From a virus: a DNA stretch of 64,000 nt. The stretch is taken from positions 1 through 64,000 of IMG/VR virus record IMGVR_UViG_3300045919_000635, one strand, 5' to 3'. The notes under the pieces were generated by a model. It did no database searches. It was not told where the DNA came from and worked only from the letters and a program-made list of their open reading frames with translations. Below are positions 17,320 through 62,212 of this stretch, one piece after another. The translations under genes were made by a program, and so were the position numbers. Positions within the stretch are counted from its first letter, which is position 1; each line of letters begins with the position of its first letter.

Positions 17320-20300
17320 ATGTTGAATTTTGCACTTCCTCATAAAAACATTGCCCCACTACCCGGCATTGCTAGTCCTAAACTCGCTGCTAAAATTCGT
17401 AACGCAGTGCGATCGCAGCAAATCAACCAAGATTGGCGGAATTGGGAAACTTGGAATAGCGCGATCGCATCTTCATCTAGCACTCAAAACCTTGCTTGGA
17501 ACTCTTTTGAGCAGTATCGCTTATTAATAAATAATCATAAAACATTTGACCACATGCGAGTGTGGGAAGCTGCCCTAAATACTGGGGAAGAATCCCGTTA
17601 TTTGTGGGATATAGCGGGTAAAGATACACTGATACTGGCTCCCCGTGAAAGTGCCAAAGCACAGCCTTTAACTGAGCTAGTTCTAACGCCTGATGGTTGG
17701 CGATGCATGGGCGAATTAAAGGTGGGTGATGAGGTTATCGCAGGTGATGGAACATTTACCCGAATTACGAAGATAACGCCCCAAGGAATAAAACCTAGCT
17801 ACCGAGTAAGCTTTACAGATGGTGCCAGTACTGAATGTTCTGACGATCACTTGTGGGCAGTTAGAAACCTGGCAGGTTCCAACCCTGGTGAGTTTAAAAC
17901 AATATCTCTTAATCAAATCAGAACTAAAGTTTTTGTTAGTGCCAAGACTTTAACAACTAAGTCAGTTCGCATTACCGAGATTACTTATAGGGACGCGACT
18001 CCCGAAGAAAAACCGTGGCTTGATTATCGCGGTTATTCTAAATTTTTCATTCCTATTGTTCAGCCAATTCAGTTTTATAGTAAAAGTTTAGGTATACACC
18101 CTTATTTAATGGGTGTATTAATTGGTGATGGGAGTTTGAAAGGGCAATGTATCCCAGCTTTTTCGACGGGCGATCAAGAGATAATCCAACTTGTTGAGCA
18201 GTGCTTACCAATTGGGTACAGTGTTAAACAAAAAGGCAGCGGGAACAATTATTCTATTACCAAAACAGTTGTAAAGGGGCATCCTCTTGAAAATATTTTA
18301 ACCTCGCAGTTGAGGAAAGTAGGATTATTTGAGCGTGGTTCCGTAGATAAATTCATTCCCAAAGATTATTTATTTAGCTCAGTTAGCGATCGCATAGCAT
18401 TACTGCAAGGACTAATGGACACAGATGGCACTGTAGCTACAAATAGTAAAGGCGGTGGTAATATAAGTTATTGCACAATCTCTACACAATTAGTTGAGGA
18501 CGTTGTTGATTTAGTGCGATCGCTTGGTGGTATAGCAACAGTTCAAAAACCCCAACGTAATTGGTATACACATAATGGAGAAAAAAGACAAGGGCAAGTT
18601 AGCTATAAAATTGGCATTAAGTTACCAGAAAATATTCAACCATTTCGCTTAAAAAGAAAGGCTTTATTATATACACCATGCACTCAGTATAAACCTACAA
18701 GAGGAATAACTAATATTGAATATGTGGGCGACACTGAAATGCAATGCATTACTGTTGCTCACCCATCTGGTTTATATATCACCAAAAATTATATTGTTAC
18801 TCACAATTCAACTTATTTGGCGCAGTGGGTAAGTTACCAATTTGGGATGCACACCTCACCCTGGCGGCGACTTGCTCTTAAGTGTTTGGGAGTAAGTTAC
18901 AACATTGACACGGCGATGCCCCGTAGTCGCCAAATCCAATCAATTATGGAGAGTTCTAAATATCAAGAAATCTTTCCTTGGGTGCGCCCTTCAAAAAAGA
19001 AGTGGGGGGAAAAGGAATGGATGATTGATTTGGAGTGGGCAGGATTGGCAACTACTGAGGAGCAATACTCTTACGTATGTGCTGGATTAACTGGTGCTAT
19101 CAACTCTCGCCGATGCCTTCTTGGTAACACCAAAATTGAAACAAGATGGAACGGCAAGATTCCCATAGCAAGTATTCGAGTGGGGATGGAAGTGCTAACT
19201 TTCAATGATGCTCGATTTGAAATGGAGTGGAAATTAGTTAAAGCGATCGCATCCCAGCCTGCCACAGAAATTTTACATATTGAAACAATCTACGGCTGCA
19301 CTCTTTCTTGCACTTTCGACCATTTAATCAAAAGCACCCAAGGATATATTGAGGCAGAAAATTTAAAACTTGGCGATCGCTTAGTCGGATATTACCGCGA
19401 AAATGACTATAGCGATTTTCCGTTTACTAGCGTTATTGACACTGTTAAATTAATCACTTCATCTAGAAGAAATTGCCTAGTCTACGATATCGAAGTTGAG
19501 GACAATCACAACTTTTTCGCTAATAATATTCTTTGCCACAATTGTCACCTAGTGCTACTCGATGATCTAATAAAGTCTCCCGAAGCTATTCGCGCTCAAT
19601 CAGTACGCGGGGCAATGGTTTCAAACTGGGAAAACGTCATCCAGTTTACCCGTTACGACGGCTCACGCGCTGTGTGTTTAGGCACTCGTATGACCGCTGA
19701 CGATATATACTGCACCACCTTTCTCAAAGAAAAGGGGTGGAATGTAATTGAGCAGTCAGCACTACTAGAACACCCAGACGGTACTGAATACAGTTTTTGG
19801 GAACCAGAAGACGATAAAGCCCCCGGTATCCCTTTGCGACGGCTGCAAGAGGAGCGGGAAACAACGCCTATCGCATTCGCATTCCAACGTCAAAATAAAA
19901 TTGTTCGGGTAAAAGAGCAGTCGTTATCTCCCGATTTAATTGTGCGGGGTATTCTGCCAACACAGTTTTCGCATTTGGTACTTGGCGTCGATTTATCAGC
20001 TGGCTTGAAAGAATCCAACGACTACACAGCTTTTGTATTGGGAGGGGTTCTCATTGAAGGCGAGGTTTTCTCCTATTGGATTATTGACGCTTGGGAAGAT
20101 CGGATTATGGGGAACACGCCAAAATTAGACGCGATGATTGAAGTTTGGGATTCCTGGAAACATTTACTACCTCAAACTAGACGCTACAACCCAGCATCTG
20201 GGGATTGGGACTTATCTCCAGTTCTGGGCTTGGAATTGTGGTTTGATTCGAGCGCTTATGGTTTATCGCTTCAAGGCGACTACGAGGATCACATTATCAA

Positions 20301-20580
20301 GCGAAACCACATCCTTGACTGGCATGTAAAGCCAGTACCAGCATCAGGCAGGGGTGGAAAATTGGAAAGGTTGCGGAGACACACCGGATTGTTCCACAAC
20401 CGTCTGATAAAATTTAACATGTATGGGCGGACAATGGCTGATGGTCGCAAACCACTGGGGAGGCTAATTCAGCAGATTACTGAATTTGGGTCAACCAGCC
20501 ACGACGACCTCTGCGATGCCTTCGAGTTGTGCGTTAGTGGGATGCGATCGCACTTACCATTAACCAAGGGGAATTACTAG
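17320..20580 (+). CDS. terL: terminase large subunit with two inteins (1086 aa precursor)
   Basis: Removing the two inteins leaves about 560 residues, a normal TerL. Spliced Walker A is APRESAK-STYLAQW (residues 107-113 joined to 497). Walker B is HLVLLDDL (743-750), joined after GAINSRR. The RNase-H-like nuclease carries LGVDLSAG, LWFDSSA and the terminal acidic motif HDDLCDAF. It cuts concatemers and pumps DNA into the prohead through the portal. The inteins sit at 114-496 and 599-741, that is, in Walker A and just before Walker B, both highly conserved sites. Activity therefore depends on protein splicing. HIP1 sites occur in exteins and inteins alike. Confidence 0.92.
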   Translation: MLNFALPHKNIAPLPGIASPKLAAKIRNAVRSQQINQDWRNWETWNSAIASSSSTQNLAWNSFEQYRLLINNHKTFDHMRVWEAALNTGEESRYLWDIAGKDTLILAPRESAKAQPLTELVLTPDGWRCMGELKVGDEVIAGDGTFTRITKITPQGIKPSYRVSFTDGASTECSDDHLWAVRNLAGSNPGEFKTISLNQIRTKVFVSAKTLTTKSVRITEITYRDATPEEKPWLDYRGYSKFFIPIVQPIQFYSKSLGIHPYLMGVLIGDGSLKGQCIPAFSTGDQEIIQLVEQCLPIGYSVKQKGSGNNYSITKTVVKGHPLENILTSQLRKVGLFERGSVDKFIPKDYLFSSVSDRIALLQGLMDTDGTVATNSKGGGNISYCTISTQLVEDVVDLVRSLGGIATVQKPQRNWYTHNGEKRQGQVSYKIGIKLPENIQPFRLKRKALLYTPCTQYKPTRGITNIEYVGDTEMQCITVAHPSGLYITKNYIVTHNSTYLAQWVSYQFGMHTSPWRRLALKCLGVSYNIDTAMPRSRQIQSIMESSKYQEIFPWVRPSKKKWGEKEWMIDLEWAGLATTEEQYSYVCAGLTGAINSRRCLLGNTKIETRWNGKIPIASIRVGMEVLTFNDARFEMEWKLVKAIASQPATEILHIETIYGCTLSCTFDHLIKSTQGYIEAENLKLGDRLVGYYRENDYSDFPFTSVIDTVKLITSSRRNCLVYDIEVEDNHNFFANNILCHNCHLVLLDDLIKSPEAIRAQSVRGAMVSNWENVIQFTRYDGSRAVCLGTRMTADDIYCTTFLKEKGWNVIEQSALLEHPDGTEYSFWEPEDDKAPGIPLRRLQEERETTPIAFAFQRQNKIVRVKEQSLSPDLIVRGILPTQFSHLVLGVDLSAGLKESNDYTAFVLGGVLIEGEVFSYWIIDAWEDRIMGNTPKLDAMIEVWDSWKHLLPQTRRYNPASGDWDLSPVLGLELWFDSSAYGLSLQGDYEDHIIKRNHILDWHVKPVPASGRGGKLERLRRHTGLFHNRLIKFNMYGRTMADGRKPLGRLIQQITEFGSTSHDDLCDAFELCVSGMRSHLPLTKGNY
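17659..18807 (+). other. TerL intein 1: class 3 (WCT) intein with LAGLIDADG endonuclease, residues 114-496
   Basis: It starts at Ala114 (AQPLTELVLTPDGW) with no Cys/Ser nucleophile and ends VTHN496 before Ser497. Block B is SDDHLWAV (Trp179), block F is MQCITV (Cys476), and block G is YIVTHN (Thr494). This Trp-Cys-Thr triplet is the mark of class 3 inteins, which start splicing from the block F cysteine. The two homing-endonuclease motifs are LMGVLIGDGS (263-272) and LQGLMDTDGT (362-371), with both acidic residues present, so homing may be active. Confidence 0.85.
19114..19542 (+). other. TerL intein 2: class 1 mini-intein without endonuclease, residues 599-741
   Basis: It begins CLLGNTKIETRWNGKIPIAS (Cys599), has CTFDHLIKS as block B, NCLVYDIEVEDNHNFFANN as block F, and ends CHN741 followed by Cys742. 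All residues for standard splicing are present. At 143 residues there is no room for a LAGLIDADG domain. The host site lies between GAINSRR and CHLVLLDD. Confidence 0.85.
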
Positions 20581-28930: not shown

Positions 28931-29051
28931 AAGTTCGGGGGAAGAGGGAAGGAGGAAGAAGGATGAAATATTTCTCAACCAATACGACTCCGCATCGAAT
29001 TTTCTTTTTTCTTGTCAACCTTCTTCCCTCTTCCATCTTCCTTCTTCCTTC
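28931..29051. repeat. purine/pyrimidine-rich dispersed repeat, copy A
   Basis: A near-palindrome: a purine arm (AAGTTCGGGGGAAGAGGG and more), an AT-rich centre, and a pyrimidine arm made of CTTC/TTCC units. Related copies lie at 31071, 38545 and 51926. This copy fills the gap between two structural genes. Confidence 0.75.
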
Positions 29052-29052
29052 A

Positions 29053-29773: not shown

Positions 29774-31159
29774 TTAATCTCCATAAGTCCGCCCAACAAT
29801 GATGAAATCATCATTCAGCTTGCTTAATCCCATGAAGGCTTGCCAAATCACTATTAAATAGCGCCCGTAGTCATCGTTTAAATTGCGCTTAATCTTGACT
29901 GGAATTCCATCTTGAGAATCCCCGCCAAAAATCTCACCTACCGCATGTTGACCAAAGAAGTAGCCAGGATAAGCAGTTCGCAACTGACTACCCGTAGGAT
30001 GGCGTGTGGTGTCAGTAGAGGCAGTATATGTTAGCTGCACTTGCTTCAGGGGGATATTATTTGTTACCCAAATGCGGAATTGATTGTACACATACCCACC
30101 AGGCAACCCATTTTGAGAGGGACCGGGCATTGCCTGATTGTAGTAAGGCAAGAAACCGCCGATATTTGGTTGGGCGATGTAATTCAAGTCGGCAGGAGGC
30201 ATGAAGCCGGGTCCGTATAACCACTCCTGGGAGGACATGACCATCGGCACTGAATAATAAGCACTGCTGCTTACCAATTCCCGAAACCGGGCATCTTGCC
30301 GTAAGTGCGTCCACATTTTCGGGCTAATCAGCGCGTGATACAAATTATCTGGGAATGTGGGCGCTCGATTAATAATTAGCTGTTCTAATATTATGTCGAG
30401 GTCGTTAACGCCAAATTTTGGGGGTCCAGAGGCGTAAGTTCCCCCGTCAAGTACGCCACCAGGATTGTATTTGTTAGTAGAAGAATCTAGGGCATTGAGA
30501 TAAAATCTATCCGTGGTTAACCGGAAATCTTGTAATAGTGTTGTTGCCCCTACACTCGCATGAAATTGCGGTTGCACTAATGGTTCAGCGTAGCCCATAT
30601 CCCAGATGAGTCTCTGTTGATACTGCATTGCCGGAATTGAGAAACGGAAGTTTCCGGGTAGCGCTGGATTGTTTGGATCTCCCCCACCTGGTCCCGTTAT
30701 TTCTCGTAAAATAATCGGTATTTTTGACTTAGGAATTTGGCGAGTGTTGGCGGTTCCCAGTATCTCAACTTCGCTACGAGTGCGACTTTCTAGATCCATG
30801 TCTCCCGTATCTGGCAAATAGCCGAAACGGTCTGCCATGTAGACTTGTCCAGGGCGCATCCTGGGGTCTGCTAAGAAATCTGGCTGCACTGCCCACCGCG
30901 AAATTGTCGCAGCAGTAGGACGGTACAGCATCTCTGAAAGGACGTAAGGATAGTCCGTAAGTGCTAAAGTATTAGACAAAGTATTCCCAGATTGATGGAC
31001 TTCTGGGTAATAGCTTTCAAGACGTGGGAGCGCAATGCATACTTTGCTTCTACGTCTTTTTTTTAATAAAGGAAGGAGTTCGTGGGAAGAAGGAAGAAGG
31101 TTGAAAAGGAAAGAAATAAATAGAGATTTTTCATCCTTCTTCCCTCTTCCTTCGTTCAA
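29774..31159 (-). CDS. probable major capsid protein (461 aa frame)
   Basis: The body from ALTDYPYVLSEMLYRPTAAT resembles N4-gp56-type major capsid proteins: long N-arm, LIINRAPTFPDNLYHALISP, KMWTHLRQDARFRELV, and FGQHAVGEIFGG near the end. Size and place downstream of the portal fit. The first about 45 residues (NEGRGKKDEKSLFISFLFNL and on) are translated purine-rich repeat, and the only in-frame canonical start is a TTG at 31159 without a ribosome site. The natural N-terminus may start near CIALPRLESYYPEVHQ from a rare codon. Its own promoter (-10 TATAAT at 31180-31185) suggests high, separate expression. Confidence 0.65.
   Translation of the reverse strand: MNEGRGKKDEKSLFISFLFNLLPSSHELLPLLKKRRRSKVCIALPRLESYYPEVHQSGNTLSNTLALTDYPYVLSEMLYRPTAATISRWAVQPDFLADPRMRPGQVYMADRFGYLPDTGDMDLESRTRSEVEILGTANTRQIPKSKIPIILREITGPGGGDPNNPALPGNFRFSIPAMQYQQRLIWDMGYAEPLVQPQFHASVGATTLLQDFRLTTDRFYLNALDSSTNKYNPGGVLDGGTYASGPPKFGVNDLDIILEQLIINRAPTFPDNLYHALISPKMWTHLRQDARFRELVSSSAYYSVPMVMSSQEWLYGPGFMPPADLNYIAQPNIGGFLPYYNQAMPGPSQNGLPGGYVYNQFRIWVTNNIPLKQVQLTYTASTDTTRHPTGSQLRTAYPGYFFGQHAVGEIFGGDSQDGIPVKIKRNLNDDYGRYLIVIWQAFMGLSKLNDDFIIVGRTYGD
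31071..31157. repeat. purine/pyrimidine-rich dispersed repeat, copy B, inside the capsid frame
   Basis: On the plus strand: GGAAGGAGTTCGTGGGAAGA, an AT-rich centre, then CATCCTTCTTCCCTCTTCC. It lies within the 5' end of the capsid reading frame and keeps it open. Confidence 0.75.
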
Positions 31160-32763: not shown

Positions 32764-33849
32764 CTACCAAACCTCCTGAGTAGGCATCATCTGCTGTCTT
32801 TGCATGACGTGCGCTCTTTGCAAATCCTGCCCTAAGTTGGGATTTCCCGACTTCTGCGCTTCAATCCGCTGCCTCAATTGATCCATCGGAGTTCCGCCCA
32901 TACTAGCGCCAGGGATGGCGGGCATTGGCGGAACTTGGGAGCTAGGATTTATTAAGGTGGTCGCTGGCGTGTAAAAGCTTTGGCTGTCGGGAGTCCCACT
33001 AATAGGGGTTTTATTTTGCAACTGAGAGAACCAAATCTGGGAATGACCCCCGTTTACTCGCATGTACTCTTGCTCGTAAGCGTTTATCAACTCGTTAAAT
33101 TCATCCTTAATCCATTCTAAAGCGGGTTGCCCATCAGCCTTAATTGCCTTTTTCCATGCTAGGAATGACCAATAAATCAAGAATTCTGGGTCACAGAATT
33201 GAGTACAGATATAGTCAAGCGTCCTTTCGTGCGCGATCGCATCCCCTGCCCAAATTTGCGATATTTCCACAAATGGTAACAAGGTATTGATTGTTTTATC
33301 CATCCACTCAATCTCTTGATTCAGCATCGCGTTAATCTGAACAAAAGGCACCAAAGCAGCAACCGCATCTTCCGCCGCATCAACATGCTGATTCAATAAA
33401 ACTGATGTTTCTACAAAAGGCATCAAAGTATTAATTAGTTGATACGACTTAGTATTTTCATCTATTGCCGCCGCAAACCCTGCCGCTAGTGTCGCCACTT
33501 GTTGCTGCAAACTAGCGATCGCGGAGGAGGGATCGAAGTTGGTCTGCGTATAAGGCAAGGAGGCTGGGGTCGATGTCGCCAACGCTGCCAACCGCCGTTC
33601 CTGTTCGGCTATCGTTTGCGCCGTTTGAGGTGCGAAGTTCTCCACCGAATACTGAGAGGGGGTAGCCGCCGCCTCCTGTTGCGGTTGCCCCTTTGCTGCC
33701 TCCTTCCCCCGCAATGCCTCCGCGAAGTTCAGGATTCTCGTAGCCTGATCTATAAAATCTCCCTGCGGCTGCATCGAAGATGCTTGAGGGTAGCCCCATG
33801 CTGGTGAGAACGGGGCTTGTGGGGATGTTCCTTGAAATAAGTTGTTCAT
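32764..33849 (-). CDS. scaffold-like protein with three internal repeats, overlapping portal (361 aa)
   Basis: ATG 33849. Pro/Gln-rich N-terminus, then helices with a threefold repeat: INTLMPFVETSVLLNQH, VAALVPFVQINAMLNQE and INTLLPFVEISQIW. The end is disordered (PPMPAIPGASMGGTPMDQLR). Location between portal and capsid genes, and the helical, low-complexity make-up, fit a scaffold or assembly protein. The first 113 codons lie inside the 3' end of the portal gene in another frame. A later start is possible, but the N-terminal sequence looks natural. Confidence 0.55.
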   Translation of the reverse strand: MNNLFQGTSPQAPFSPAWGYPQASSMQPQGDFIDQATRILNFAEALRGKEAAKGQPQQEAAATPSQYSVENFAPQTAQTIAEQERRLAALATSTPASLPYTQTNFDPSSAIASLQQQVATLAAGFAAAIDENTKSYQLINTLMPFVETSVLLNQHVDAAEDAVAALVPFVQINAMLNQEIEWMDKTINTLLPFVEISQIWAGDAIAHERTLDYICTQFCDPEFLIYWSFLAWKKAIKADGQPALEWIKDEFNELINAYEQEYMRVNGGHSQIWFSQLQNKTPISGTPDSQSFYTPATTLINPSSQVPPMPAIPGASMGGTPMDQLRQRIEAQKSGNPNLGQDLQRAHVMQRQQMMPTQEVW

Positions 33850-35707
33850 TTTCGGTTGTTATTGCTCCTGGATTTAATTGAGAAATAATATCGGCTAATG
33901 CTAGTGGTTCTGAGTTGGCGGGTTCGTAAACTGGTCTTCCGTAAGATATCTCCTTATTTAAAGTCAACATTGCTTGCTCAACTAATGCAGGCAATCCCAG
34001 AGAAACCCCCCACGGTGCCTTGGGATTCTTGGGGTCGGGTATCTGCATAAACTGGGAGAAAAGTTGCATTAATATTTGTAAACCTGCTGCCGCATTTTGA
34101 ACAACGCGAGGAGAGAAACCAGACATGGCATTCTTGATTTCTTGGTCGGTCATGTTTGGATACTGTTTCCTCAGTACCCACTCTTGACTTAACCCGTCCT
34201 CTCTCTCGTTTCTGGCGCTTATACTTAGGTCAAGCTGTTCCCGCGTCGTATTATTAAACACTTCACGAGTAAAACGCCAAATTACAGTGCGATCGCCACC
34301 CGGTACAATTCCGATATTCGTATCAGGCAGCGGTAATTTACGTTCTTTCTTCATCTGCCACAATGCCTGAGAGATATCGTCAGTCAACTGGTCGAGAGAA
34401 GTTAAAGCCGCAAATTCACGGGCATAATTAGTTTTTAAAGTAGCGAACAACCAGGATTTAAATATCCTTTCTTCCCTTTCTAATATCCGCTCAAAAACTT
34501 TAGCGAGTCCCGTATGCCCATACAAAGCCTCAGCTTTTTTATCTGCGGTATTTTGCACCCTCCCAAAAAGCGTTTTCACCTCCCCAAAAGTGGCACCGGC
34601 GGAAATGCCCGAAAGTGGATCTACTCCTCCTAATATCCAGTGAATTAATTCCCGAAGTTGTCGTATCCACAAGTTTTGGTCGCCAGAAACTGGATCAGCT
34701 TGAATAAAAGCAAACCGTTCCCCATCCCCCACATTGCCAAAAATTGTATCTAAACTCCCTTCGGAAGTGTTCGCTTGCCACATTCCCTGTGGCGATCGCT
34801 GCATTCCCCAGCTAGGCACATCAACTGGATTAGTCGAACCAGAGTAATTTCCCCCTCCTAAATCAACATAACGATTAGCACTTGCCCAAGTATTACTCCA
34901 CCCCGATGCTTGCTGCATTACTTCGTTAGCACTGCGGGTAGTAATGAGGATGGGGTTACTGAACATCCGCAAATTCTTGTGTGCCTTTTCTACCAAGACC
35001 TCGTGTGTCTCAATCAATCCTTGGTGCAAGTAAAAATCATCGCTGCCTTGTTGCCCCAGTTGCCGGGAATTATTCTTGCTTAAAACAATTGGCAGATGTG
35101 GCTTGAAAGGATTCTCATATTTCTGCGATCGCTCCATCCAAGCAAATTCGCTGTCTCCTTGGGGGCTATATGTAGCAAAACTCCCCCCATTAAATGATGC
35201 ATCGAATTGTGGCTTAATTAACGATTCTGACTGATTTATCCAATCAGCCGTAATAATAATCTTTACCCACCGTTGCTGTTTAATCAGCGTTCCCGGTGTT
35301 TCGTTTTCGTAAGAATATCTAACAAATACTTTTTCAATTTCTCGCCCACCCAACTTGTAATAAATCTTAAATTGGGGGTCTGGGTGATTCAGTCCACCCG
35401 TGAAAAATTCAATTTGGTACATTCCCAAGTTTTCATTGTCTGGCGTGAAATACCATAGAACTTCACCCCGACTAACGAAGGAATCCATAATAAAGTCAAG
35501 TCTATGTTGTAAAGAATTGTGTTGCCAAAGCCTAGTAAAAAGCTTCATCCTTGCCCCGCTCTCATCCTGAAGGGGGCGCATTTCTACATTTCCGCCTCTT
35601 ACCCCCCATTCCCGCATTTGAGCGCAATGCAAAGCTACTACAGTACTCTGGCTGCCTGAAGTGCCATCGCGATCTAAAATTGCTTTGATTTGGGTTTCTA
35701 AAGCCAA
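33512..35707 (-). CDS. portal protein (731 aa)
   Basis: ATG 35707. Portal-like pattern: VRGGNVEMRPLQDESGARMK, LDFIMDSFVSRGEVLWYFTP, then a long helical stem with GGVDPLSGISAGATFGEVKT and a C-terminal Gly-rich crown (GGIAGEGGSKGATATGGGGY). Length is at the upper end for portals, as in short-tailed phages. It would form the dodecameric ring through which TerL packs DNA. It is first in the leftward structural series. The last 338 nt are also read as the neighbouring gene. Confidence 0.75.
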   Translation of the reverse strand: MALETQIKAILDRDGTSGSQSTVVALHCAQMREWGVRGGNVEMRPLQDESGARMKLFTRLWQHNSLQHRLDFIMDSFVSRGEVLWYFTPDNENLGMYQIEFFTGGLNHPDPQFKIYYKLGGREIEKVFVRYSYENETPGTLIKQQRWVKIIITADWINQSESLIKPQFDASFNGGSFATYSPQGDSEFAWMERSQKYENPFKPHLPIVLSKNNSRQLGQQGSDDFYLHQGLIETHEVLVEKAHKNLRMFSNPILITTRSANEVMQQASGWSNTWASANRYVDLGGGNYSGSTNPVDVPSWGMQRSPQGMWQANTSEGSLDTIFGNVGDGERFAFIQADPVSGDQNLWIRQLRELIHWILGGVDPLSGISAGATFGEVKTLFGRVQNTADKKAEALYGHTGLAKVFERILEREERIFKSWLFATLKTNYAREFAALTSLDQLTDDISQALWQMKKERKLPLPDTNIGIVPGGDRTVIWRFTREVFNNTTREQLDLSISARNEREDGLSQEWVLRKQYPNMTDQEIKNAMSGFSPRVVQNAAAGLQILMQLFSQFMQIPDPKNPKAPWGVSLGLPALVEQAMLTLNKEISYGRPVYEPANSEPLALADIISQLNPGAITTENEQLISRNIPTSPVLTSMGLPSSIFDAAAGRFYRSGYENPELRGGIAGEGGSKGATATGGGGYPLSVFGGELRTSNGANDSRTGTAVGSVGDIDPSLLALYADQLRSLLRDR

Positions 35708-37228: not shown

Positions 37229-38542
37229 ATGCCTAGACGATCTGGTATCGGTTCAAGTAATAACGATGATTTTAACTTTAAGAAGTCGCAAATTCCCAAG
37301 GTTCAAAAACTGGAACAATTGCGACCAGGCGATCGCACTTCTTTCTACTTACGTCCCAATAAAACTTTATACCCAAAAGACCCATGTGACAACCTCCATA
37401 TAAACGATGTACCTAGTTTATTAAATAAAAAGGGGAGACAGCCAGGGGAGATTATTCAATATGATCCAGTTCAAGAAAAGAACTATTTATCAATTTCGGC
37501 AAGGTACGAGCGATCGCTTTACTTAATCCCCGCAAATGTTGAAAAACGCGGCAACACAATTATTTACTCGTTTTGTTCATCTGGTTCCCCTACTGGATAC
37601 TGGGAAGTTGCGGTAACAGGAGGCGCAACAACTCTAACTTTCGTCAACCCAATTTTAACAATTATCTGCCCGCGTCCCTTCCAACTCAAGGATTTTACCG
37701 AAATAGATACAGACGCAGAATTTATCCTTTGGGAACAACTGCAAGGACGCACAGCTATAATTTTCCCGAAGAGTGGGGATGGCAGCTTAAACCCCTATAT
37801 CAGCATCACTGGCGCTCCTTCTGACTTAGATCCCCCAATCTTAATTAAGGGGGACGCGGAGGCAGATGCAACCGTCACAGATACGCTATTAATTTACACT
37901 TCCCCCACTAGCAATTATTCGGGAACTACGTTTTCAGAAGTTGGGGAAGTGCAGCCAAGATGTTATTCTCCTCTCCCGTACCTTGCCCCCACGTCGTATC
38001 AATCAGTGTATGTATATGACTCTCGTTCGCTTTCCCTAACTTGGTTAAATCCTGAGTGCGATCGCGGCTATGTTGTCAGTTATAAATTGCTGCAAAATAC
38101 TACGGGTGAGTATGTGGCGTTGGCGACTCTAAGCAAGGAAGAAAATCGACTAGTTGAAATTCAACCAAATATACATTACAGAATTGAAACAACTTTTGAA
38201 TATCGAGAAAAGCAAATATTAAAACGTAGTGATTTAATCTATTTCCCCTATAGTGAAACCAGCTTTATTAAAAACATCTTCGGGGATGATTCTATTCGCG
38301 GGTTTGCTTTTTCTGCCGTGGAATCAGTTTCCTCTAAAATAGATTTGAAGGTGACGACGCTACTCTATGAAGATTCTTGTAGCTCCACACCATCATTCAG
38401 TTATGTAGAGAATACTTATTCTCAAGTCGAATTATCAGCAAATAGACAAATATTAGAAGATAGCTACAACGCCCAATTATCTTATACTTTTATCGAAAAT
38501 AAAATTACCAAAGTTGATTTAGGAGGCGTAATAATTGGCTAA
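37229..38542 (+). CDS. tail/adhesion protein (437 aa)
   Basis: ATG 37229 (MPRRSGIGSSNNDDFNFKKS) is preferred to the TTG at 37181, which lies within the divergent gene. Beta-rich throughout with Ig-like or fibre-like character (VAVTGGATTLTFVNPILTII, then SYKLLQNTTGEYVALATLSK). It is the first of six adjacent rightward tail genes ending in the GH74-like spike. Its end overlaps the TTG start of the next gene, and AGGAGG lies in its last codons. Confidence 0.6.
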   Translation: MPRRSGIGSSNNDDFNFKKSQIPKVQKLEQLRPGDRTSFYLRPNKTLYPKDPCDNLHINDVPSLLNKKGRQPGEIIQYDPVQEKNYLSISARYERSLYLIPANVEKRGNTIIYSFCSSGSPTGYWEVAVTGGATTLTFVNPILTIICPRPFQLKDFTEIDTDAEFILWEQLQGRTAIIFPKSGDGSLNPYISITGAPSDLDPPILIKGDAEADATVTDTLLIYTSPTSNYSGTTFSEVGEVQPRCYSPLPYLAPTSYQSVYVYDSRSLSLTWLNPECDRGYVVSYKLLQNTTGEYVALATLSKEENRLVEIQPNIHYRIETTFEYREKQILKRSDLIYFPYSETSFIKNIFGDDSIRGFAFSAVESVSSKIDLKVTTLLYEDSCSSTPSFSYVENTYSQVELSANRQILEDSYNAQLSYTFIENKITKVDLGGVIIG

Positions 38543-47413: not shown

Positions 47414-47477
47414 ATTAACTCCTGGGATGTTATATGAGTCGAGTGGGTAGGTCAACAACCATTTATATATTACCATA

Positions 47478-47502
47478 AATATGTCCACAATATAGACATA
47501 TT
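47478..47502. promoter_or_regulatory. operator-like inverted repeat before the RHH gene
   Basis: AATATGTC (47478-47485) and GACATATT (47495-47502) form a perfect 8-bp dyad with 9 bp between, ending one base before the ATG at 47504. This is the usual place for autoregulation by a ribbon-helix-helix protein. Confidence 0.55.
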
Positions 47503-47503
47503 C

Positions 47504-47683
47504 ATGAAAACAAAGGAAGTACATATCCGTATATCAGGAAAGCGTTTCAACAAACTAAAAACCTATGCCACTTTGAAAGAAAAAACAGTGACTCAAATGA
47601 TTGAAGATTACATTGACAAATTGCCTAGTTACAAGATTGACGATTCCTCAATCATCCCACTCCCTAATCAACCTGACGGTTGA
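47504..47683 (+). CDS. ribbon-helix-helix DNA-binding protein (59 aa)
   Basis: ATG 47504. KTKEVHIRISGKRFNKLKTY, then ATLKEKTVTQMIEDYIDKLP is a textbook ribbon-helix-helix: a basic strand, then two helices with the T-V-T-Q turn. A short acidic/proline tail follows. Probably a small regulator or the antitoxin-type half of a pair with the divergent 56-residue gene. It falls below common ORF length cut-offs. Confidence 0.7.
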   Translation: MKTKEVHIRISGKRFNKLKTYATLKEKTVTQMIEDYIDKLPSYKIDDSSIIPLPNQPDG

Positions 47684-47784
47684 TGTTGGTCGGAGATGTT
47701 TTCGTCATCGTCCGCTCCCTATCCCCACCTTATGAGTACAATGAAGAGCGTGATTAGAGGTGTAGCGATCGCACTCTTCCAACC

Positions 47785-49941: not shown

Positions 49942-50847
49942 ATGTCCGTAATATTATACGAAATCGCGACGCAAAAAAGGACTTACTTGGATGACAATGC
50001 GATCGCACTAGATAAAGATTTCGCACTTCAGCTACAGCAGCGACTCTGCGACTTCCACCTCCTCTCTAACCCCGATGGGAGGTGGGGTGAAAAGTCAGCC
50101 GCAGCCCTAGCCAAATTTAAATCTTTCCGAGGATTGAAGGAGGCTGGATGCGGTAACTTGACGGCATCACAACTGATAAATATCACACCATCAGGCTTAA
50201 TTAACGGATACAAACTTGATGGCAGTCTAGCTAGTCGTGCCTTGATGTTTTTTATCGACCGAGGCTTTAAAATCGCCACAAACAAGAGCGAATGTAACAT
50301 TTTCTATTTAGAGGGCGTAAACCGCGACGGTTCCCTAAACGACAATAACCGGTTTGTTTATAATGACCGCCGCTGCATTCTCCAATTCGATAATAATAAC
50401 GGACTCCTTACGCCCAAATTAACAGGGAACTGGTTAGCGACATGTGACCCCGGACAATACTACTGGGACAACCCACTCAATGAGAACGGGTGCGCGAACA
50501 TCAAGAAAAACACCCAATATAAGGCTTGGACAACCGGGAAACATCATGACCAATATGCTTTAGTTCAGGCAGCGGATATTACAGTTTTGCGCGGAGAGAA
50601 ACAAACTGCTTTTGATGGTGATGACTTTGGAGTAAACCAACACTCTGTAGGGAAGGGGCAGGATTTCTCCTTTGGGGAGGCGATCGGTAAGTGGAGTGCT
50701 GGCTGTTGTGTGGGTGCGAACCGCGCAGAACATGAGAGCTTCATGCGACAAGTTGACGCAGACCCACGAGAGAAAGCGAATAAAGGCAATTATTTGCACT
50801 ACACAGCATTTATTAAAGGGGTTAGTTTGGAGGCGACGTTCCCATAA
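49942..50847 (+). CDS. endolysin-like protein: peptidoglycan-binding domain plus SxGC hydrolase/transpeptidase-like domain (301 aa)
   Basis: Residues 28-80 form a PG_binding_1-like repeat (LQQRLCDFHLL, DGRWGEKSAAALAKFKSFRG). The C-terminal domain has VNQH (231-234) and WSAGCCVG (SAGC, 252-255), the His and Ser-x-Gly-Cys pattern of L,D-transpeptidase-like and related phage cell-wall enzymes. It starts a rightward cassette of four overlapping genes that looks like a lysis module. Whether it cuts or cross-links peptidoglycan cannot be told from sequence alone. Confidence 0.65.
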   Translation: MSVILYEIATQKRTYLDDNAIALDKDFALQLQQRLCDFHLLSNPDGRWGEKSAAALAKFKSFRGLKEAGCGNLTASQLINITPSGLINGYKLDGSLASRALMFFIDRGFKIATNKSECNIFYLEGVNRDGSLNDNNRFVYNDRRCILQFDNNNGLLTPKLTGNWLATCDPGQYYWDNPLNENGCANIKKNTQYKAWTTGKHHDQYALVQAADITVLRGEKQTAFDGDDFGVNQHSVGKGQDFSFGEAIGKWSAGCCVGANRAEHESFMRQVDADPREKANKGNYLHYTAFIKGVSLEATFP

Positions 50848-53230: not shown

Positions 53231-53258
53231 AAAAAACGCCCCTATATTTATAGGAGCG
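53231..53258 (-). terminator. terminator of the csx3/Nudix-like operon
   Basis: On the minus strand CGCTCCTATA...TATAGGGGCG is a nine-pair stem with one mismatch, followed by TTTTTT (plus-strand A-run at 53231-53236). It lies 19 nt after the stop at 53277. Confidence 0.7.
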
Positions 53259-53276
53259 CATGAACTTTTTTGTAAA

Positions 53277-53825
53277 TTACCGCCAAACAAAATAAGTCTT
53301 TTTCACGTCATCATCGGACTCCTCAACGAACTCCTCCTGCCAGAATTCGATGGGGTAGTAGGCGATAAAATCGTGAAATTGATATTGAGTAACCAACCCT
53401 GGATAACTGGGGCTTTCTTTCTCCTCAGTATCAATCCCGCCAGGGCGAATGGGAGTGAGTGCGATCGCTTCACTACTCATCCCTAATTCTTCCTTCAGAG
53501 CACGTTCCGCTGCATCTTCCGGATTTTCGTTGGGGAGGAATTTTTCGGCTAATCCTTCAATTCTACGTTTACGGATGCGCCCATCCGCGAAAACTTGGCG
53601 ATCTTCGTAAAGGCTTAATTCATTATCCAGGGAGATAACTTTCACTCGACACACCTTGATTAGGCGGATAGGCTTATCGCCCTCCCAAACAATCTCAGAT
53701 TCGCCTTTCTCTATTTCTTTAACTAAGGATGCAAAATCTTTCGCTCGCCTTTTTCCGTATAATTCCAAGGGAAGATATTCTTGAAGCCTAGAAGTTTGAG
53801 CTATTTGCATAATTTTATCAACCAA
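53277..53825 (-). CDS. Nudix-like protein with unusual 5' end (182 aa from TTG)
   Basis: IEGLAEKFLPNENPEDAAER and ALKEELGM match a Nudix box (Gx5Ex7RExxEEL-like, partly degenerate). The N-terminal part has KVCRVKVISLDNELSLYEDR. The first canonical start is the TTG at 53825, but the frame is open to 53954, and this upstream part looks coding (SRGRGRPSTGQGRTVYLPFK, then LLQILNSNSDEE). It overlaps the end of csx3 and contains no ATG, GTG or TTG. Expression may therefore use a rare start or a frameshift from csx3. Nudix proteins cleave nucleoside-diphosphate-linked compounds. The substrate here is unknown. Confidence 0.6.
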   Translation of the reverse strand: MVDKIMQIAQTSRLQEYLPLELYGKRRAKDFASLVKEIEKGESEIVWEGDKPIRLIKVCRVKVISLDNELSLYEDRQVFADGRIRKRRIEGLAEKFLPNENPEDAAERALKEELGMSSEAIALTPIRPGGIDTEEKESPSYPGLVTQYQFHDFIAYYPIEFWQEEFVEESDDDVKKTYFVWR

Positions 53826-53926: not shown

Positions 53927-54250
53927 TTAAGCTACTACTTCCGTTTTTGGGATTTCAATGATATCCCCTACTCTCACGCCAGGGAAATGGGATTGAACAA
54001 CGACCGCGCCTAAGCGGGGATCTAAATGTGCTACCCACACCGCGATATGGCAGTGATGCGCGATCGCACTATGCAACCAAATTGCTCCACGGTGGGAGAT
54101 AATGACACCCTTTTTGAAATCTATAGCTAAGGCATCGACAGCGGCGATCGCGCTTATAATCGCGCTGGTATCGTAGCTAGCTTCAGTGGATAAAATTTCA
54201 ATTACTTGAAATTGCTCATTTGACTGAGCGATATTTGCTGTAATGGTCAT
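53927..54250 (-). CDS. csx3: Csx3/Crn3-like ring nuclease (107 aa)
   Basis: ATG 54250. Residues 47-100 read KKGVIISHRGAIWLHSAIAH, HCHIAVWVAHLDPRLGAVVV, QSHFPGVRVGDIIEI. The run G-V-(I/V)-I-S-x-R-G-x-I-W-L-H...A-H..H, then D-P-R-L-G-A-V-V-V-x-S-H and a final VGD-(V/I)-I is characteristic of Csx3 from type III CRISPR loci. These proteins (Crn3) degrade the cyclic tetra-adenylate (cA4) signal. Length (about 110) fits. No cas gene or CRISPR array is in the window. In a phage context it could switch off type III immunity. It is co-transcribed with a Nudix-like gene. Confidence 0.8.
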   Translation of the reverse strand: MTITANIAQSNEQFQVIEILSTEASYDTSAIISAIAAVDALAIDFKKGVIISHRGAIWLHSAIAHHCHIAVWVAHLDPRLGAVVVQSHFPGVRVGDIIEIPKTEVVA

Positions 54251-54335: not shown

Positions 54336-55118
54336 TTATTTATTCCAAAACCCGTCGGATTCCATTGATGTTTGGGTACTGCCACCTCCCGCTGAGGGAA
54401 CACGAACTCTGTAGGATTGCCCATTTTTAAGCTTTGCCATTTCCGCTTCACATATCCGGATTTGGCTCATTTCTTCCCCCTCGAAAACTTTTATCCCATC
54501 ATCATTTACGACGATTCGATAAGCCTTTCTATAGTGATTGGAGAAGAAACAATCTGGATCTCCCAGAAACATCCCTCGACAAAATCCAGACTCGACCTTA
54601 AAGACTTTTGAACTTCGCCAAAAAGCTTCAAAACGATAATCGGACTTCCGAATACCCTCCTGAATCTTCACAACTTCCTCAATTTCTATGTTGAGATATG
54701 AGCCTATTTTTTGAGCCTCAGCCAAGGCTTGAACTTCAGATACGCGCTTGAATTCTAGCTTGTCCGGGAATGATAGCAATTCAGACTTTTGCTTTATCCT
54801 CAAAACAGCTTTAGCCACTGAAAACGAACAACCATACTTACCTTTTAATGTTTTGGTTCCCGATGCTGGCATATCTTCTAATCTCAAGCCTAATGCGCTC
54901 GCATCGCTTGCATTAGCAATCTTGGTGGGTAAATCGGAGATTGCTTCCTCTGGCGTTCCAAGCCAGAAAATTTCATACGCCTCCCAGCCTTCTACTTCCA
55001 GTACTGGGGCATTATTTTTTAATTCTTTATTCAGCTTTTCAATTTTTCTAACTGCCTCTTCCCACTCAGCAATAAGCTGCTTTTCGTTTTGGAACTCAAC
55101 GGTTTTGATTAATTTCAC
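54336..55118 (-). CDS. hypothetical protein (260 aa)
   Basis: ATG 55118. A coiled-coil-like N-terminus (EWEEAVRKIEKLNKELKNNA), then an ordered body (EGWEAYEIFWLGTPEEAISD, FKVESGFCRGMFLGDPDCFF) and a Ser/Gly tail. No family recognised. It has its own strong promoter with duplicated operator (55195-55245) and is probably first in the operon containing csx3. Confidence 0.65.
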   Translation of the reverse strand: MKLIKTVEFQNEKQLIAEWEEAVRKIEKLNKELKNNAPVLEVEGWEAYEIFWLGTPEEAISDLPTKIANASDASALGLRLEDMPASGTKTLKGKYGCSFSVAKAVLRIKQKSELLSFPDKLEFKRVSEVQALAEAQKIGSYLNIEIEEVVKIQEGIRKSDYRFEAFWRSSKVFKVESGFCRGMFLGDPDCFFSNHYRKAYRIVVNDDGIKVFEGEEMSQIRICEAEMAKLKNGQSYRVRVPSAGGGSTQTSMESDGFWNK

Positions 55119-55194: not shown

Positions 55195-55245
55195 AATTTA
55201 TCTTAGATTAATTCATTTGGATTGTCAAGGAATTTATCTTAGATT
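55195..55245 (-). promoter_or_regulatory. promoter with duplicated 15-bp element (operator candidate)
   Basis: On the minus strand TTGACA (55228-55223), a 17-bp spacer, then TAAGAT (55205-55200). The 15-bp sequence AATTTATCTTAGATT (plus strand) covers the -10 (55195-55209) and occurs again exactly at 55231-55245, just upstream of the -35. Two equal sites framing one promoter suggest repressor binding with cooperation. Confidence 0.65.
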
Positions 55246-55253
55246 GAGCAACA

Positions 55254-55441
55254 GAAGGCATGACGGTAGGATAAATCCTACCGTCAGCCTTCATCCCCGG
55301 TCTGAAGCACAGAATGCGGAACTACGTTCCTGTTCTTCCGGGGTTTTCGCCATCCATCTTATAAACCTGGGATTTCTTATCTGCATGAGCAAGTTATGTC
55401 TTAGATTCAAGAATCCCCGTCTCTTTAGAGCGGGGAGTGTC
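55254..55441. mobile_element. IS200/IS605-type right-end relic
   Basis: It contains a long hairpin TGACGGTAGGAT/ATCCTACCGTCA (55261-55286), a CCCCGG...CCGGGG pair about 50 bp apart, and the typical IS605-family end ATCCCCGTCTCTTTAGAGCG then GGGAGTGTCAA (to 55441). No transposase frame remains. The rest of the 55119-55582 gap holds the promoter above, two direct repeats and HIP1 sites. Confidence 0.5.
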
Positions 55442-55582
55442 AACCGCTTCGATTTCGGATTCCGTGTACTGAACGGGAGGGTTGAATTGGATACTTGGGT
55501 CGTGCTTGTCAATGCGATCGTCGCAAGACGTGCCGGAGGTATCGCTGTTATGTGAGAAGAGTGCGATCGCTGTTTGGTTGCG

Positions 55583-56986
55583 TCATGTTTTAAATCTAAT
55601 AGCTGCGTGAGTGCGATTAATTTCAATTAGTTCCATTGCAGCCAGTTGCTCTACAAAGCTTGTAATTTCTGCTGCTGTATTCTTGCCTTTAAGCACTGCG
55701 TAATCTTTGCGACTAATATCACGGACGGCTAACCATTCCCCTTTAGCTTCTTTAGTTGCCTTCCAAATAGTTCGCAATGGTTCGGGTAATGCATCTGCCG
55801 CAGTCAGTTCACATATAGTCGGAATGGGTGTTAGTGTTGCAGTCGTTAAAACTTTATTTGGTGCAATTTGAGGAACTTTATTTTCAGATTCTCTAATTTT
55901 TTTCCCTTTATACTCCAGCAAGTTGGGCAATAATCCCGCCTTCGGTTTCCCACTGGTGCTAATTATTATTGGTACTTTATTCTGTGTTGAAAGCTTGATA
56001 TACTTAGCTACATCGATGACAAACTTTTCACGCATCGCACCATCGGGAAAGATGTAGGGGTTTCTGACAATTGACTGGATAACTTCAAAACCTCCTTGCT
56101 CATTGCCATCTTCATCAAGACTAATCAATCCTTGGCTGATAATATTCAAGTTGTTTCTGATGTTAGAATCTTCTGCCAGTCCCAAAGAAGCAATATTGTA
56201 AGTTTGGCTATCAACAAATAACGATACATTAAACTCACGGGCAACCGTTACAATATCCGCAAGTTTAGTTTGCACTTGGGACTCCCAAAGTTTCTTATGG
56301 GATTTCGTCAAACTGTTGTGGGTGCTGTACCAATCAGCAATTATCAACCGAACTGGTAAACTTTTTAGTTTGTCACGCTCTATACCCTCTGGTAATTGCG
56401 ATCGATCAAGAAATATTTCATAAACTTTTTGAAGTGCTTCAAGTGCGGTAGCTGGGTCGGATGAATCATACACCCACACTTTACCTTTTTCACTTAACCC
56501 ATTGAAGCTATCGTTTTTACGGGCAATCACATACACATCAGCACTTGGGTAGTTTTCAAACAACTTAGTCAGCCAGTATGACTGAGTGACTGACTTACCC
56601 GCACCACTGGGAGCTGCGAGCAAAGTGCTAAGTTTGGTGTGAACCAATTCGTCAATAATCCGTTGACCAGTTTCAGTGTGTGGTGAAACGTTGGTAGTTA
56701 TAGATTGAGCATTGGGCGCTAGTCTTATGTCACTGTCATGTGATTGAGCAGTCGCGTACTCTACGTGCGCTGGTTCTAGAACGGTTGGTATATATGAATC
56801 AGGTTGATTCACCAAATTGGATTTTATATTTTTTTCTTGTAACCCTTGCGGTTTTTCAACTCCAAACTTAGCGATCGCCAATCCAACAATAGCCCCCAAA
56901 ATAATAGAAACTTCCCACCCCGTTGGTATGGGTTGAGAAGTTTTAGGCTTTTGAGTTGCGAGTAATAAGCACAAAAGTAGATTCAT
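55583..56986 (-). CDS. HerA/FtsK/VirD4-like membrane ATPase (467 aa)
   Basis: ATG 56986. An N-terminal TM segment (VSIILGAIVGLAIAKF, residues 26-41), then a P-loop ATPase: Walker A APSGAGKS (125-132), Walker B RLIIAD (213-218), then VSLFVDSQTYN, a sensor-like strand. These DNA-pumping ATPases work in conjugation, chromosome segregation or virus packaging. The C-terminus (KEAKGEWLAVRDISRKDYAV) resembles a winged helix. It lies at the end of an operon of small membrane proteins, as in plasmid-type transfer or translocation modules. Not the phage terminase, which is separate. Confidence 0.7.
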   Translation of the reverse strand: MNLLLCLLLATQKPKTSQPIPTGWEVSIILGAIVGLAIAKFGVEKPQGLQEKNIKSNLVNQPDSYIPTVLEPAHVEYATAQSHDSDIRLAPNAQSITTNVSPHTETGQRIIDELVHTKLSTLLAAPSGAGKSVTQSYWLTKLFENYPSADVYVIARKNDSFNGLSEKGKVWVYDSSDPATALEALQKVYEIFLDRSQLPEGIERDKLKSLPVRLIIADWYSTHNSLTKSHKKLWESQVQTKLADIVTVAREFNVSLFVDSQTYNIASLGLAEDSNIRNNLNIISQGLISLDEDGNEQGGFEVIQSIVRNPYIFPDGAMREKFVIDVAKYIKLSTQNKVPIIISTSGKPKAGLLPNLLEYKGKKIRESENKVPQIAPNKVLTTATLTPIPTICELTAADALPEPLRTIWKATKEAKGEWLAVRDISRKDYAVLKGKNTAAEITSFVEQLAAMELIEINRTHAAIRFKT

Positions 56987-57249
56987 TTTGAGCGAAACTT
57001 ACATTGCATTCCAAACACTGCATCATTAGCAAAATTAGTCATACCAACCATTGTGTTGCGAATTGGGGTAGGAACTAAAGAATTTACAACTACTCCCCAA
57101 AGTAACGGGCTAACAATTAACCACAGTAAAAAAATAACTCCTATTTCTCTGAGTCCAACTTTAAATTTAGAGCGTTCTTCTTTTAACTTCAACTCTAAAC
57201 TTTCAACTTTATCCAGTAAATCAACTTGCTGCCAGTGGTGTGTCTGCAT
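56983..57249 (-). CDS. small coiled-coil membrane protein (88 aa)
   Basis: ATG 57249. A coiled-coil start (DLLDKVESLELKLKEERSKF) and one TM segment (IGVIFLLWLIVSPLLWGVVV). It overlaps the ATPase start by ATGA, hence co-translated with it. Likely a membrane partner of the ATPase. Confidence 0.6.
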   Translation of the reverse strand: MQTHHWQQVDLLDKVESLELKLKEERSKFKVGLREIGVIFLLWLIVSPLLWGVVVNSLVPTPIRNTMVGMTNFANDAVFGMQCKFRSK

Positions 57250-57361: not shown

Positions 57362-57455
57362 CTTTTGCTTGGTCTATTCTAATTAGCATAATCAAACCGT
57401 AGATAATAGCTATTCCAACTATTACCAGTACTCCACTTAATGAGGGAATCATCAT
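57345..57455 (-). CDS. single-TM micro-protein (36 aa)
   Basis: ATG 57455, overlapping the stop of the four-TM gene. MIPSLSGVLVIVGIAIIYGL, then IMLIRIDQAKDERRK: one TM helix with a charged end. Coupled to the genes on either side. Confidence 0.55.
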   Translation of the reverse strand: MMIPSLSGVLVIVGIAIIYGLIMLIRIDQAKDERRK

Positions 57456-57976
57456 CAAACTTTCCTCGCGTCTTGAACTTCTGCGTGATTAAAAATGTTG
57501 GCACATCCAAAAGCTATTTCACTGCCCAACACAAATACAGTGGCAAGTATTTGTATAAACTGTGGCAATCCCGCTGTATTACCTTTTGCTCCCATCTGAG
57601 CAAGGTTTACATTGTAATCAAACCAAAATACATATCCAGCCACCAAACAAAACGCAATGACCCCGGCAATGCTTGCTGCTGCACTAAAGTTTTTTAGTAG
57701 CGGGTCATGACTACCAAGTAAAGCTCTTGGTCTTTCCATTGTTTGCAGTAAAGCATTTGGGTCAAACATTACTGTCATCGCCGCCGCCTCAATGCCTAGT
57801 ATCAAAACTACAGCGCTAGAGCTACCAAATATTTGCTGAATCCAATTGCCTCCTGATAATACTTTGTAAAAGTAAGGCGTTAAAGTTACAGCATTGTAAC
57901 CAAGAATTAACCAGCCAGATGCTTTCATGATGTTACCAAGCTGGCTATTAGTCTTTTTGTCCCTTGTAAATAACAT
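57455..57976 (-). CDS. four-TM membrane protein (173 aa)
   Basis: ATG 57976. TM segments near GWLILGYNAVTLTPYFYKVL, SSSAVVLILGIEAAAMTVMF, AASIAGVIAFCLVAGYVFWF and FIQILATVFVLGSEIAFGCA. A basic N-terminus faces the cytoplasm (by the positive-inside rule). Start of the membrane-protein/ATPase set. No family recognised. Confidence 0.65.
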   Translation of the reverse strand: MLFTRDKKTNSQLGNIMKASGWLILGYNAVTLTPYFYKVLSGGNWIQQIFGSSSAVVLILGIEAAAMTVMFDPNALLQTMERPRALLGSHDPLLKNFSAAASIAGVIAFCLVAGYVFWFDYNVNLAQMGAKGNTAGLPQFIQILATVFVLGSEIAFGCANIFNHAEVQDARKV

Positions 57977-60913: not shown

Positions 60914-62212
60914 ATGTCTAATTTTGTATTCGTGCTTGACACCAACTTTCAACCATTAAACCCAGTTCCACCGGGACAAGCTAGGCGATTACTGAAAGCA
61001 AAGCAAGCTGCTGTCTATCGTCGTTACCCATTCACAATCATCCTAAAATACGCGGTTCCAAGTCCTGATACAGAACCACACCAATTAAAAATAGATCCAG
61101 GCTCTAAGACTACTGGATTAGCAATTGTGCAGGGCGAGAAAGTTATCTGGGGTGCAGAATTGACCCACCGTGGGCAACAAATCAAAAACGATTTAGAGTC
61201 ACGCCGCGTTATTCGTCGCAGTCGTCGTAACCGCAAAACCCGTTACCGGAAACCAAGATTTCTAAACCGCACTCGCCAAAAAGATTGGTTAGCACCAAGC
61301 CTTAATTCCAGAGTTGAAAACATCCTAACTTGGGTCAATCGGATAACTCGATATGTGCCGATTACTGGCATATCTCAAGAGTTGGTTAAATTCGATCTGG
61401 CTGCAATGCAGAATCCTGAAATCTCAGGCAAGGAATACCAGCAAGGAGAATTAGCCGGCTACGAAGTCAGGGAGTATTTACTTGAAAAATGGGGCAGAAA
61501 GTGCGCTTATTGCGGTGTTGAAAACGTCCCATTTGAAGTTGAACATATTCGCCCGAAATCAAAGGGAGGAAGTGACAGAATTTCAAATCTCACGCTTGCT
61601 TGTCATGATTGCAATCAAGCAAAAGGGAGTAGAGATGTTAAAGATTTCTTAGCCAAAAAGCCCGATATTTTATCCCGTATCTTGAGGCAAGCTAAACTTC
61701 CACTCAAAGATGCAGCAGCGGTTAATTCAACCCGGTGGGCATTGTTTGAAAGACTAAAACAGACAGGGTATCCAGTAGAAACCGGGACGGGTGGCAAGAC
61801 AAAATACAACCGTGTCCGGCTTAACTTACCTAAAGCGCATTGGTTAGATGCTGCCTGCGTAGGGAATGTAGAAAGCCTACAAATTGTTACCTCTACACCC
61901 TTGCTGATTGCTGCTAAGGGGTGGGGGAATCGCCAAATGTGTACAACCAATAAATACGGCTTCCCGATTCGTCATAGAACACGCTGCAAGACTTTCTTTG
62001 GTTTCCAAACTGGTGATATGGCACGGGCAATTCTCCCCACTGGGAAGTTCGCAGGTGTTCATGTTGGCAGATTAACCGTCCGCGAAAGTGGTGTATTTGA
62101 AATGCGTACATTGATTGGTAAAGTTAGTCCGGTACGCCATAAGTACTGCGAATCTATCCATCGTAACGATGGGTACATGTATGCATTCCCTACTGACTCA
62201 GTGACTATTTGA
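60914..62212 (+). CDS. iscB: IscB RNA-guided nuclease, apparently intact (432 aa)
   Basis: Domains in order: PLMP-type start (VFVLDTNFQPLNPVPPGQAR), RuvC-I KIDPGSKTTGLAI (Asp61), arginine-rich bridge helix (RRVIRRSRRNRKTRYRKPRF, 97-116), RuvC-II ISQELVKF (Glu156), HNH with CAYC (197-200), VEHIRPKSKGGSD (His211) and CHDC (230-233), RuvC-III KAHWLDAA (His309, Asp312), then the C-terminal domain. Length is typical, and all catalytic residues are present. IscB is the likely ancestor of Cas9 and cuts DNA guided by omega RNA. No TnpA is next to it, so mobility would need help in trans. Confidence 0.92.
   Translation: MSNFVFVLDTNFQPLNPVPPGQARRLLKAKQAAVYRRYPFTIILKYAVPSPDTEPHQLKIDPGSKTTGLAIVQGEKVIWGAELTHRGQQIKNDLESRRVIRRSRRNRKTRYRKPRFLNRTRQKDWLAPSLNSRVENILTWVNRITRYVPITGISQELVKFDLAAMQNPEISGKEYQQGELAGYEVREYLLEKWGRKCAYCGVENVPFEVEHIRPKSKGGSDRISNLTLACHDCNQAKGSRDVKDFLAKKPDILSRILRQAKLPLKDAAAVNSTRWALFERLKQTGYPVETGTGGKTKYNRVRLNLPKAHWLDAACVGNVESLQIVTSTPLLIAAKGWGNRQMCTTNKYGFPIRHRTRCKTFFGFQTGDMARAILPTGKFAGVHVGRLTVRESGVFEMRTLIGKVSPVRHKYCESIHRNDGYMYAFPTDSVTI

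Follow-up and report, generated by a model that had tools for sequence, protein, structure and literature searches.

A gene for a Csx3/Crn3-type protein of 107 residues lies on the minus strand of a virus genome, within the 64,000-nucleotide stretch analysed here (bases 1-64000 of the 67,185-base IMG/VR record IMGVR_UViG_3300045919_000635; hereafter the window). Both the family identity of this csx3 gene and its location in a phage are firm. Judging from alignment and a structural model, the product is very likely to have the predicted ring nuclease activity on cyclic tetra-adenylate (cA4), and we think it probable that this phage-borne Crn3-type enzyme acts as an anti-type-III CRISPR protein. 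For this gene we infer enzymatic activity, expression during infection and a benefit to the phage.

A first-pass annotation of the window had placed the open reading frame (ORF) at exactly 53927-54250, which is borne out; its strand, absent from that annotation, is minus, the plus strand carrying several stops over the same interval. The comparison with Csx3 hidden Markov models (HMMs) that it proposed returned strong matches, with 76.4 bits for TIGR02579 (curated cut-off 55.4) and 69.4 bits for PF09620 (curated cut-off 21). The Csx3 models of PADLOC also match, as does the solved Csx3 of Archaeoglobus fulgidus (AfCsx3; E 4e-16), and all three signature motifs quoted on first pass are present in the protein. 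Across a six-frame translation of the full record the catalytic-motif pattern appears just once, so that the match is not a chance one. No match to the DUF1874 profile (AcrIII-1) was obtained in the Pfam profile search, and no profile match to the SAVED domain (AcrIII-2).

An AlphaFold2 model built with 36 relatives is confident (predicted local distance difference test 93.7, predicted template modelling score 0.85). Foldseek comparison with the PDB gave 13 matches at E <= 0.001, every one an AfCsx3 chain, in keeping with the earlier claim that the protein is distinct from AcrIII-1; the alignment to cA4-bound AfCsx3 (6yud) has an E value of 3e-9, template modelling (TM) scores of 0.80/0.86 and a root-mean-square deviation of 1.6 Å. 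The BFVD fold library yielded no match at E <= 0.001. The structural check against Archaeoglobus Csx3, likewise suggested on first pass, thus finds a confident Csx3 fold with an intact His/Asp/Arg arrangement. In the alignment, each of the five residues linked to cleavage of cA4 is kept (H65, H68, D77, R79 and H88; Table 1), the Arg79 position being invariant across 37 aligned sequences. Mutational work on AfCsx3 found H60 and D69 essential and R71 and H80 important (Athukoralage et al. 2020, PMC7371418); H57 is the likely Mn ligand (PMC7371418).

Terminase, portal-like, capsid and endolysin genes mark the record, of 67,185 bp, as a genuine phage. A distant relative of the capsid protein occurs in Synechococcus phage S-EIVl (31%), and closer relatives in two viral contigs. 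Neither Cas10 nor a CRISPR-like array was found in the 67-kb record, nor any other cas match among the scanned neighbour proteins of csx3, which agrees with the first-pass statement that no cas gene or array is visible; the region is phage, and the adverse case foreseen there, a piece of host chromosome flanking a type III locus, does not apply. Placement in a virus, away from CRISPR loci, departs from the habit of Crn3, which usually lies in a type III CRISPR locus.

The gene recurs in other phages. Scans of viral contigs with profiles and short exact patterns, the latter undercounting so that totals are lower bounds, turned up csx3 in at least four phage-like records besides this one. The csx3-bearing viral contigs, which include L008, L010, L011, L012 and L013, measure 42.1, 41.8, 76.9, 272.6 and 44.9 kb, plus a 10.3-kb fragment; they carry genes for terminases, integrase, RecT, RusA, DNA polymerase and a Dda-like helicase, and none of them has Cas10. 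L010 (G003) is classed as phage by a terminase match, the genes close to its csx3 not being clearly viral, and L012 (G005) as phage-like. In the latter, a 272.6-kb record (IMGVR_UViG_3300026484_000007), csx3 at 9869-10165 adjoins helicase genes and is closest to a Nautiliaceae protein. An 18-kb "plasmid" of Pyramidobacter sp. YE332 (NZ_CP133039.1; L007) looks like a temperate-phage fragment, and in it csx3 comes after a repressor and a helix-turn-helix (HTH) gene; in Pyramidobacter C12-8, csx3 directly follows a divergent CI/Cro-like pair. The slot after such a pair is a common location of anti-CRISPR genes. The gene content of L007 comprises integrase, repressor, HTH gene, crn3, DNA polymerase, VapE and holin.

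Some candidates were set aside. L003 and L004 were dropped as viral relatives, the peptide WLHSAIAHHC being read there on the strand opposite another phage gene. Phage G004 shows a similar gene order; its ATPase and that of the window are only 19% identical, so no common descent of an ATPase-csx3 module is claimed. A tblastn search of INPHARED gave no csx3 relative.

Cellular copies were sought in 386 cyanobacterial genomes, a relative being counted at E <= 1e-6. Such relatives occur in 31 genomes, the best sharing about 50% identity with a part of the protein. All 31 genomes contain Cas10, and 23 of 32 csx3 places (counted by hand) have a Cas10 match no more than about 15 kb away on the same contig. 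In the csx3 tree, the window copy and the phage copy of L011 group with stand-alone proteins of Thermoproteota. A cyanobacterial origin of the window gene is not rejected by the approximately unbiased test (p 0.37), and no donor is therefore claimed. Within the limited resolution of a single gene, phage copies fall in at least three places of the tree, which suggests repeated capture. It seems fairly likely that Crn3 forms a further class of viral cA4 ring nucleases, which tailed phages unrelated to one another, with hosts among cyanobacteria, Synergistota and other groups, captured separately as an anti-type-III gene in accessory or early slots.

As to the host, the window holds 162 copies of GCGATCGC, and this signature, together with the relatives of the phage, points to a cyanobacterium. 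Among the relatives is a 17.9-kb contig in the cyanobacterial genome G313, with 84-87% DNA identity to the phage over most aligned blocks and proteins about 99% identical over 345 residues of the large terminase subunit (TerL) and 404 residues of the capsid protein. G313 has two type III loci, the GGDD cyclase motif being kept in both Cas10s; in one locus a CARF gene (Cas_APE2256 family) is accompanied by a gene for a divergent protein resembling Csx3. These loci are evidence, short of proof, that relevant hosts signal through cyclic oligoadenylates. Two small Csx3-like proteins, at L155 11823-12545, adjoin a type III locus of G313; one scores 24.0 bits, far under the TIGR02579 cut-off, and the other has no profile match. 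Short phage matches in cyanobacterial genomes were considered as spacers, and the pair that was followed up (G093) is an interspersed repeat.

The countermeasure to type III immunity proposed on first pass is strengthened by the recurrence of csx3 in phages and by the intact cyclase motifs of the type III systems in the assembly that holds the sister phage. In the mechanism we propose, host Cas10 would sense phage RNA and make cA4, which Csx3 dimers would sandwich head to tail. Where two dimers meet, one would contribute its Asp77/Arg79 face and the other its His65/His68/His88 face to a shared Mn-dependent site that cuts cA4 to linear A2-P; with cA4 lost, CARF effectors would stay inactive and infection would proceed. 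Expression of MmCsx3 partly relieved type III immunity against a plasmid in Escherichia coli (PMC7371418).

Several points weigh against a role in counter-defence. Relief by MmCsx3 was weaker than that by AcrIII-1, and AfCsx3 turns over slowly, at 0.075 per min at 70 C (PMC7371418), so that Crn3 could be a weak countermeasure. The host is indicated indirectly, by cyanobacterial signatures and relatives, and the arrays read from G313 contain no spacers against this phage. A second near-identical copy of this csx3 was not found, and none of three related phage sequences (G008, the contig from G313, and G401) shows the gene, though the first two may be fragments. In G401 other genes and no csx3 follow the ATPase, so that csx3 sits in an accessory slot; on this evidence the gene is accessory.

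Since csx3 lies beside an ATPase module that resembles those of cyanobacterial plasmids (28 plasmid records), a chimeric contig had to be weighed, that is, a chromosomal or plasmid csx3 of a cyanobacterium joined to the phage by assembly. One contig only unites this csx3 with these structural genes, and the adjoining module is plasmid-like. The independent 75.7-kb viral contig G401, however, encodes relatives of TerL, portal and capsid together with a 64%-identical ATPase and its neighbouring small gene, indicating that the two modules belong together and speaking against a chimera. Moreover, a comparison of the DNA surrounding csx3 with the 386 cyanobacterial genomes gave short repeats and no long match; the best cyanobacterial csx3 shares only the partial identity noted above, and base composition in the csx3 region is in line with the phage genes. 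We regard a joining artefact or host fragment as very improbable.

The remaining alternatives concern function. Were csx3 carried as lysogeny cargo, it would keep carrier cells alive, instead of aiding lytic infection, by damping the type III response that prophage or plasmid-like transcripts trigger in the host. The presence beside csx3 of an ATPase/membrane-protein module typical of cyanobacterial plasmids would fit such a role, as would the finding of a phage relative inside the G313 assembly and the integrases of two other csx3 phages (L007 and G004); yet no integrase or partition gene was recognised among the scanned proteins of the record, and the csx3 of the Pyramidobacter prophage occupies a lytic-side early position, beside cro. 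We consider this rather unlikely. Whether the gene serves lytic counter-defence or protects carrier cells is one of the main uncertainties, along with the biochemistry and the host. A Mn-dependent RNase or deadenylase serving phage RNA metabolism with no CRISPR link, the activity first reported for AfCsx3, is improbable, given that the equivalents of D69, R71, H80 and H60, residues needed for cA4 cleavage (PMC7371418), are kept and that Cas10 is present in all 31 of the cyanobacterial genomes with csx3. Finally, the protein might bind cA4 without useful turnover or be encoded by a decaying gene. Its long tree branch (1.87 changes per column) and the slow turnover published for Crn3 would agree with this, as would the example of the related ring nuclease Csx15, a good sponge and slow enzyme (PMC13148439); against it, no catalytic residue is lost, no stop interrupts the frame and the whole fold is modelled with confidence, and we give a sponge or remnant little credence. 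An anti-type-III ring nuclease thus remains the reading that we favour.

Compared with known systems, the phage protein resembles Crn3/Csx3 AF_1864 (PDB 6yud, 3wzh, 6vjg) in fold, stand-alone size and the five functional residues, with a core 50% identical; it differs in being phage-encoded, outside a type III locus and divergent in its N-terminal third, and its activity is a predicted one. With the cyanobacterial Csx3-AAA fusions (Nostoc edaphicum pNe_2, Pseudanabaena) it shares the Csx3 domain and some N-terminal homology, whereas the C-terminal P-loop ATPase domain of these proteins, usually encoded near cas10, is missing from it. AcrIII-1, a viral DUF1874 protein that is metal-independent (PMC7371418), has the same expected role of destroying cA4 on behalf of a virus and an unrelated fold. 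AcrIII-2, from TGBSV with Thermocrinis as its likely host (PMC12751052), is a viral cA4 ring nuclease that resembles a cellular type III protein and also sandwiches cA4, but it consists of 230 residues with a SAVED domain. Homologues of Csx16, Csx20 and Crn4b are type III ring nucleases likewise found in phages, but they belong to other families (PMC12409355, PMC12830947). When HMMs for ring nucleases, Crn3 among them, were run against 28,114 phage genomes, AcrIII-1 (36), Csx20 (4) and Csx16 (2) were recovered, Crn3 being unlisted (Hoikkala et al. 2025, PMC12409355). Our literature search, which mostly left out subscription journals, found no report of a phage Crn3.

Genes and sites around csx3 are collected in Table 1. 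For the 260-residue product of the upstream gene, searches of Pfam, PADLOC and viral contigs gave no relative. The downstream NUDIX-like gene possibly shares a transcript with csx3, and its product, with a profile score only at the cut-off, might process nucleotide products. In consensus scans of the csx3 region, four terminator-like sites were found against about two expected by chance, and promoter-like sites did not exceed chance. The first-pass annotation had given csx3 its own terminator; the only candidate site able to serve it (53259-53236) follows the next gene and is therefore not its own. That annotation also placed csx3 near a lysis cassette: an endolysin-like gene does lie about 3 kb away, but it is a single gene, not a cassette, on the strand opposite to csx3.

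Table 1. Features of the window, with coordinates, strand and basis of assignment.
Feature	Coordinates	Strand	Basis
TerL with two intein-like insertions	17320..20580	+	phrog_38, phrog_19299; Hint, LAGLIDADG domains
Major head protein	29774..31159	-	phrog_1357 E 5e-13
Portal-like virion structural protein	33512..35707	-	phrog_20475 E 1e-98
Endolysin-like gene	49942..50847	+	phrog_3000 E 3e-23; phrog_33083 endolysin E 1e-10
Terminator-like hairpin 3' of NUDIX-like gene	53236..53259	-	consensus scan only
NUDIX-like gene downstream of csx3	53277..53825	-	PF00293 E 3.4e-4, 21.1 bits, at cut-off
csx3/crn3-like gene, 107 residues, stand-alone (without AAA domain)	53927..54250	-	TIGR02579, PF09620, AlphaFold2, Foldseek
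Codon of His88 = AfCsx3 His80 (hydrogen bond to cA4)	53987..53989	-	alignment; PMC7371418
Codon of Arg79 = AfCsx3 Arg71 (scissile-phosphate contact)	54014..54016	-	alignment, PMC7371418
Codon of Asp77 = AfCsx3 Asp69 (essential)	54020..54022	-	alignment; D69A inactive, PMC7371418
Codon of His68 = AfCsx3 His60 (essential)	54047..54049	-	alignment; H60A inactive, PMC7371418
Codon of His65 = AfCsx3 His57 (proposed Mn ligand)	54056..54058	-	alignment; role PMC7371418
260-residue gene upstream of csx3, no assigned function	54336..55118	-	ORF
Promoter-like site upstream of 54336-55118 gene	55200..55228	-	consensus scan only
FtsK/HerA-like ATPase	55583..56986	-	plasmid and G401 relatives, alignment
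Small probable membrane-protein genes of ATPase module	56983-57249, 57455-57976		

Other features of the phage deserve mention. The intein-like insertions of TerL span approximately residues 182-461 and 602-741; the TerL of the sister contig in G313 lacks the second of these and retains only a short stretch of the first. A full-length IscB gene (60914-62212; NF040563, 477.6 bits) is accompanied, about 46 kb away, by an inverted copy of its 3' part (14904-15389; 413 bases, 88.6% identical), which suggests that the IscB element moved within this phage. Short repeats of a kind common in cyanobacterial genomes are seen at 55381-55451, 47433-47747, 38547-38600 and 29019-29052, some of them falling within a structural ORF or at its beginning (38535-41168 is one such ORF). 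The 1022-residue ORF at 10431-13499 combines C5-cytosine methylase and Dam-like N6-adenine methylase domains and is possibly an anti-restriction enzyme.

Viral ring nucleases known to counter type III CRISPR fall into few families, AcrIII-1 and AcrIII-2, with Crn4b, Csx16 and Csx20 among the candidates. Were a Crn3 from a phage to possess an intact, cooperative Mn-dependent site, this family too would count among those that viruses have adopted, and the range of anti-CRISPR enzymes would come to include phages of cyanobacteria, hosts that in many cases have type III loci. The 107-residue csx3 is a small, directly testable gene, and the "CRISPR-associated" label attached to crn3 can misname genes that belong to phages.
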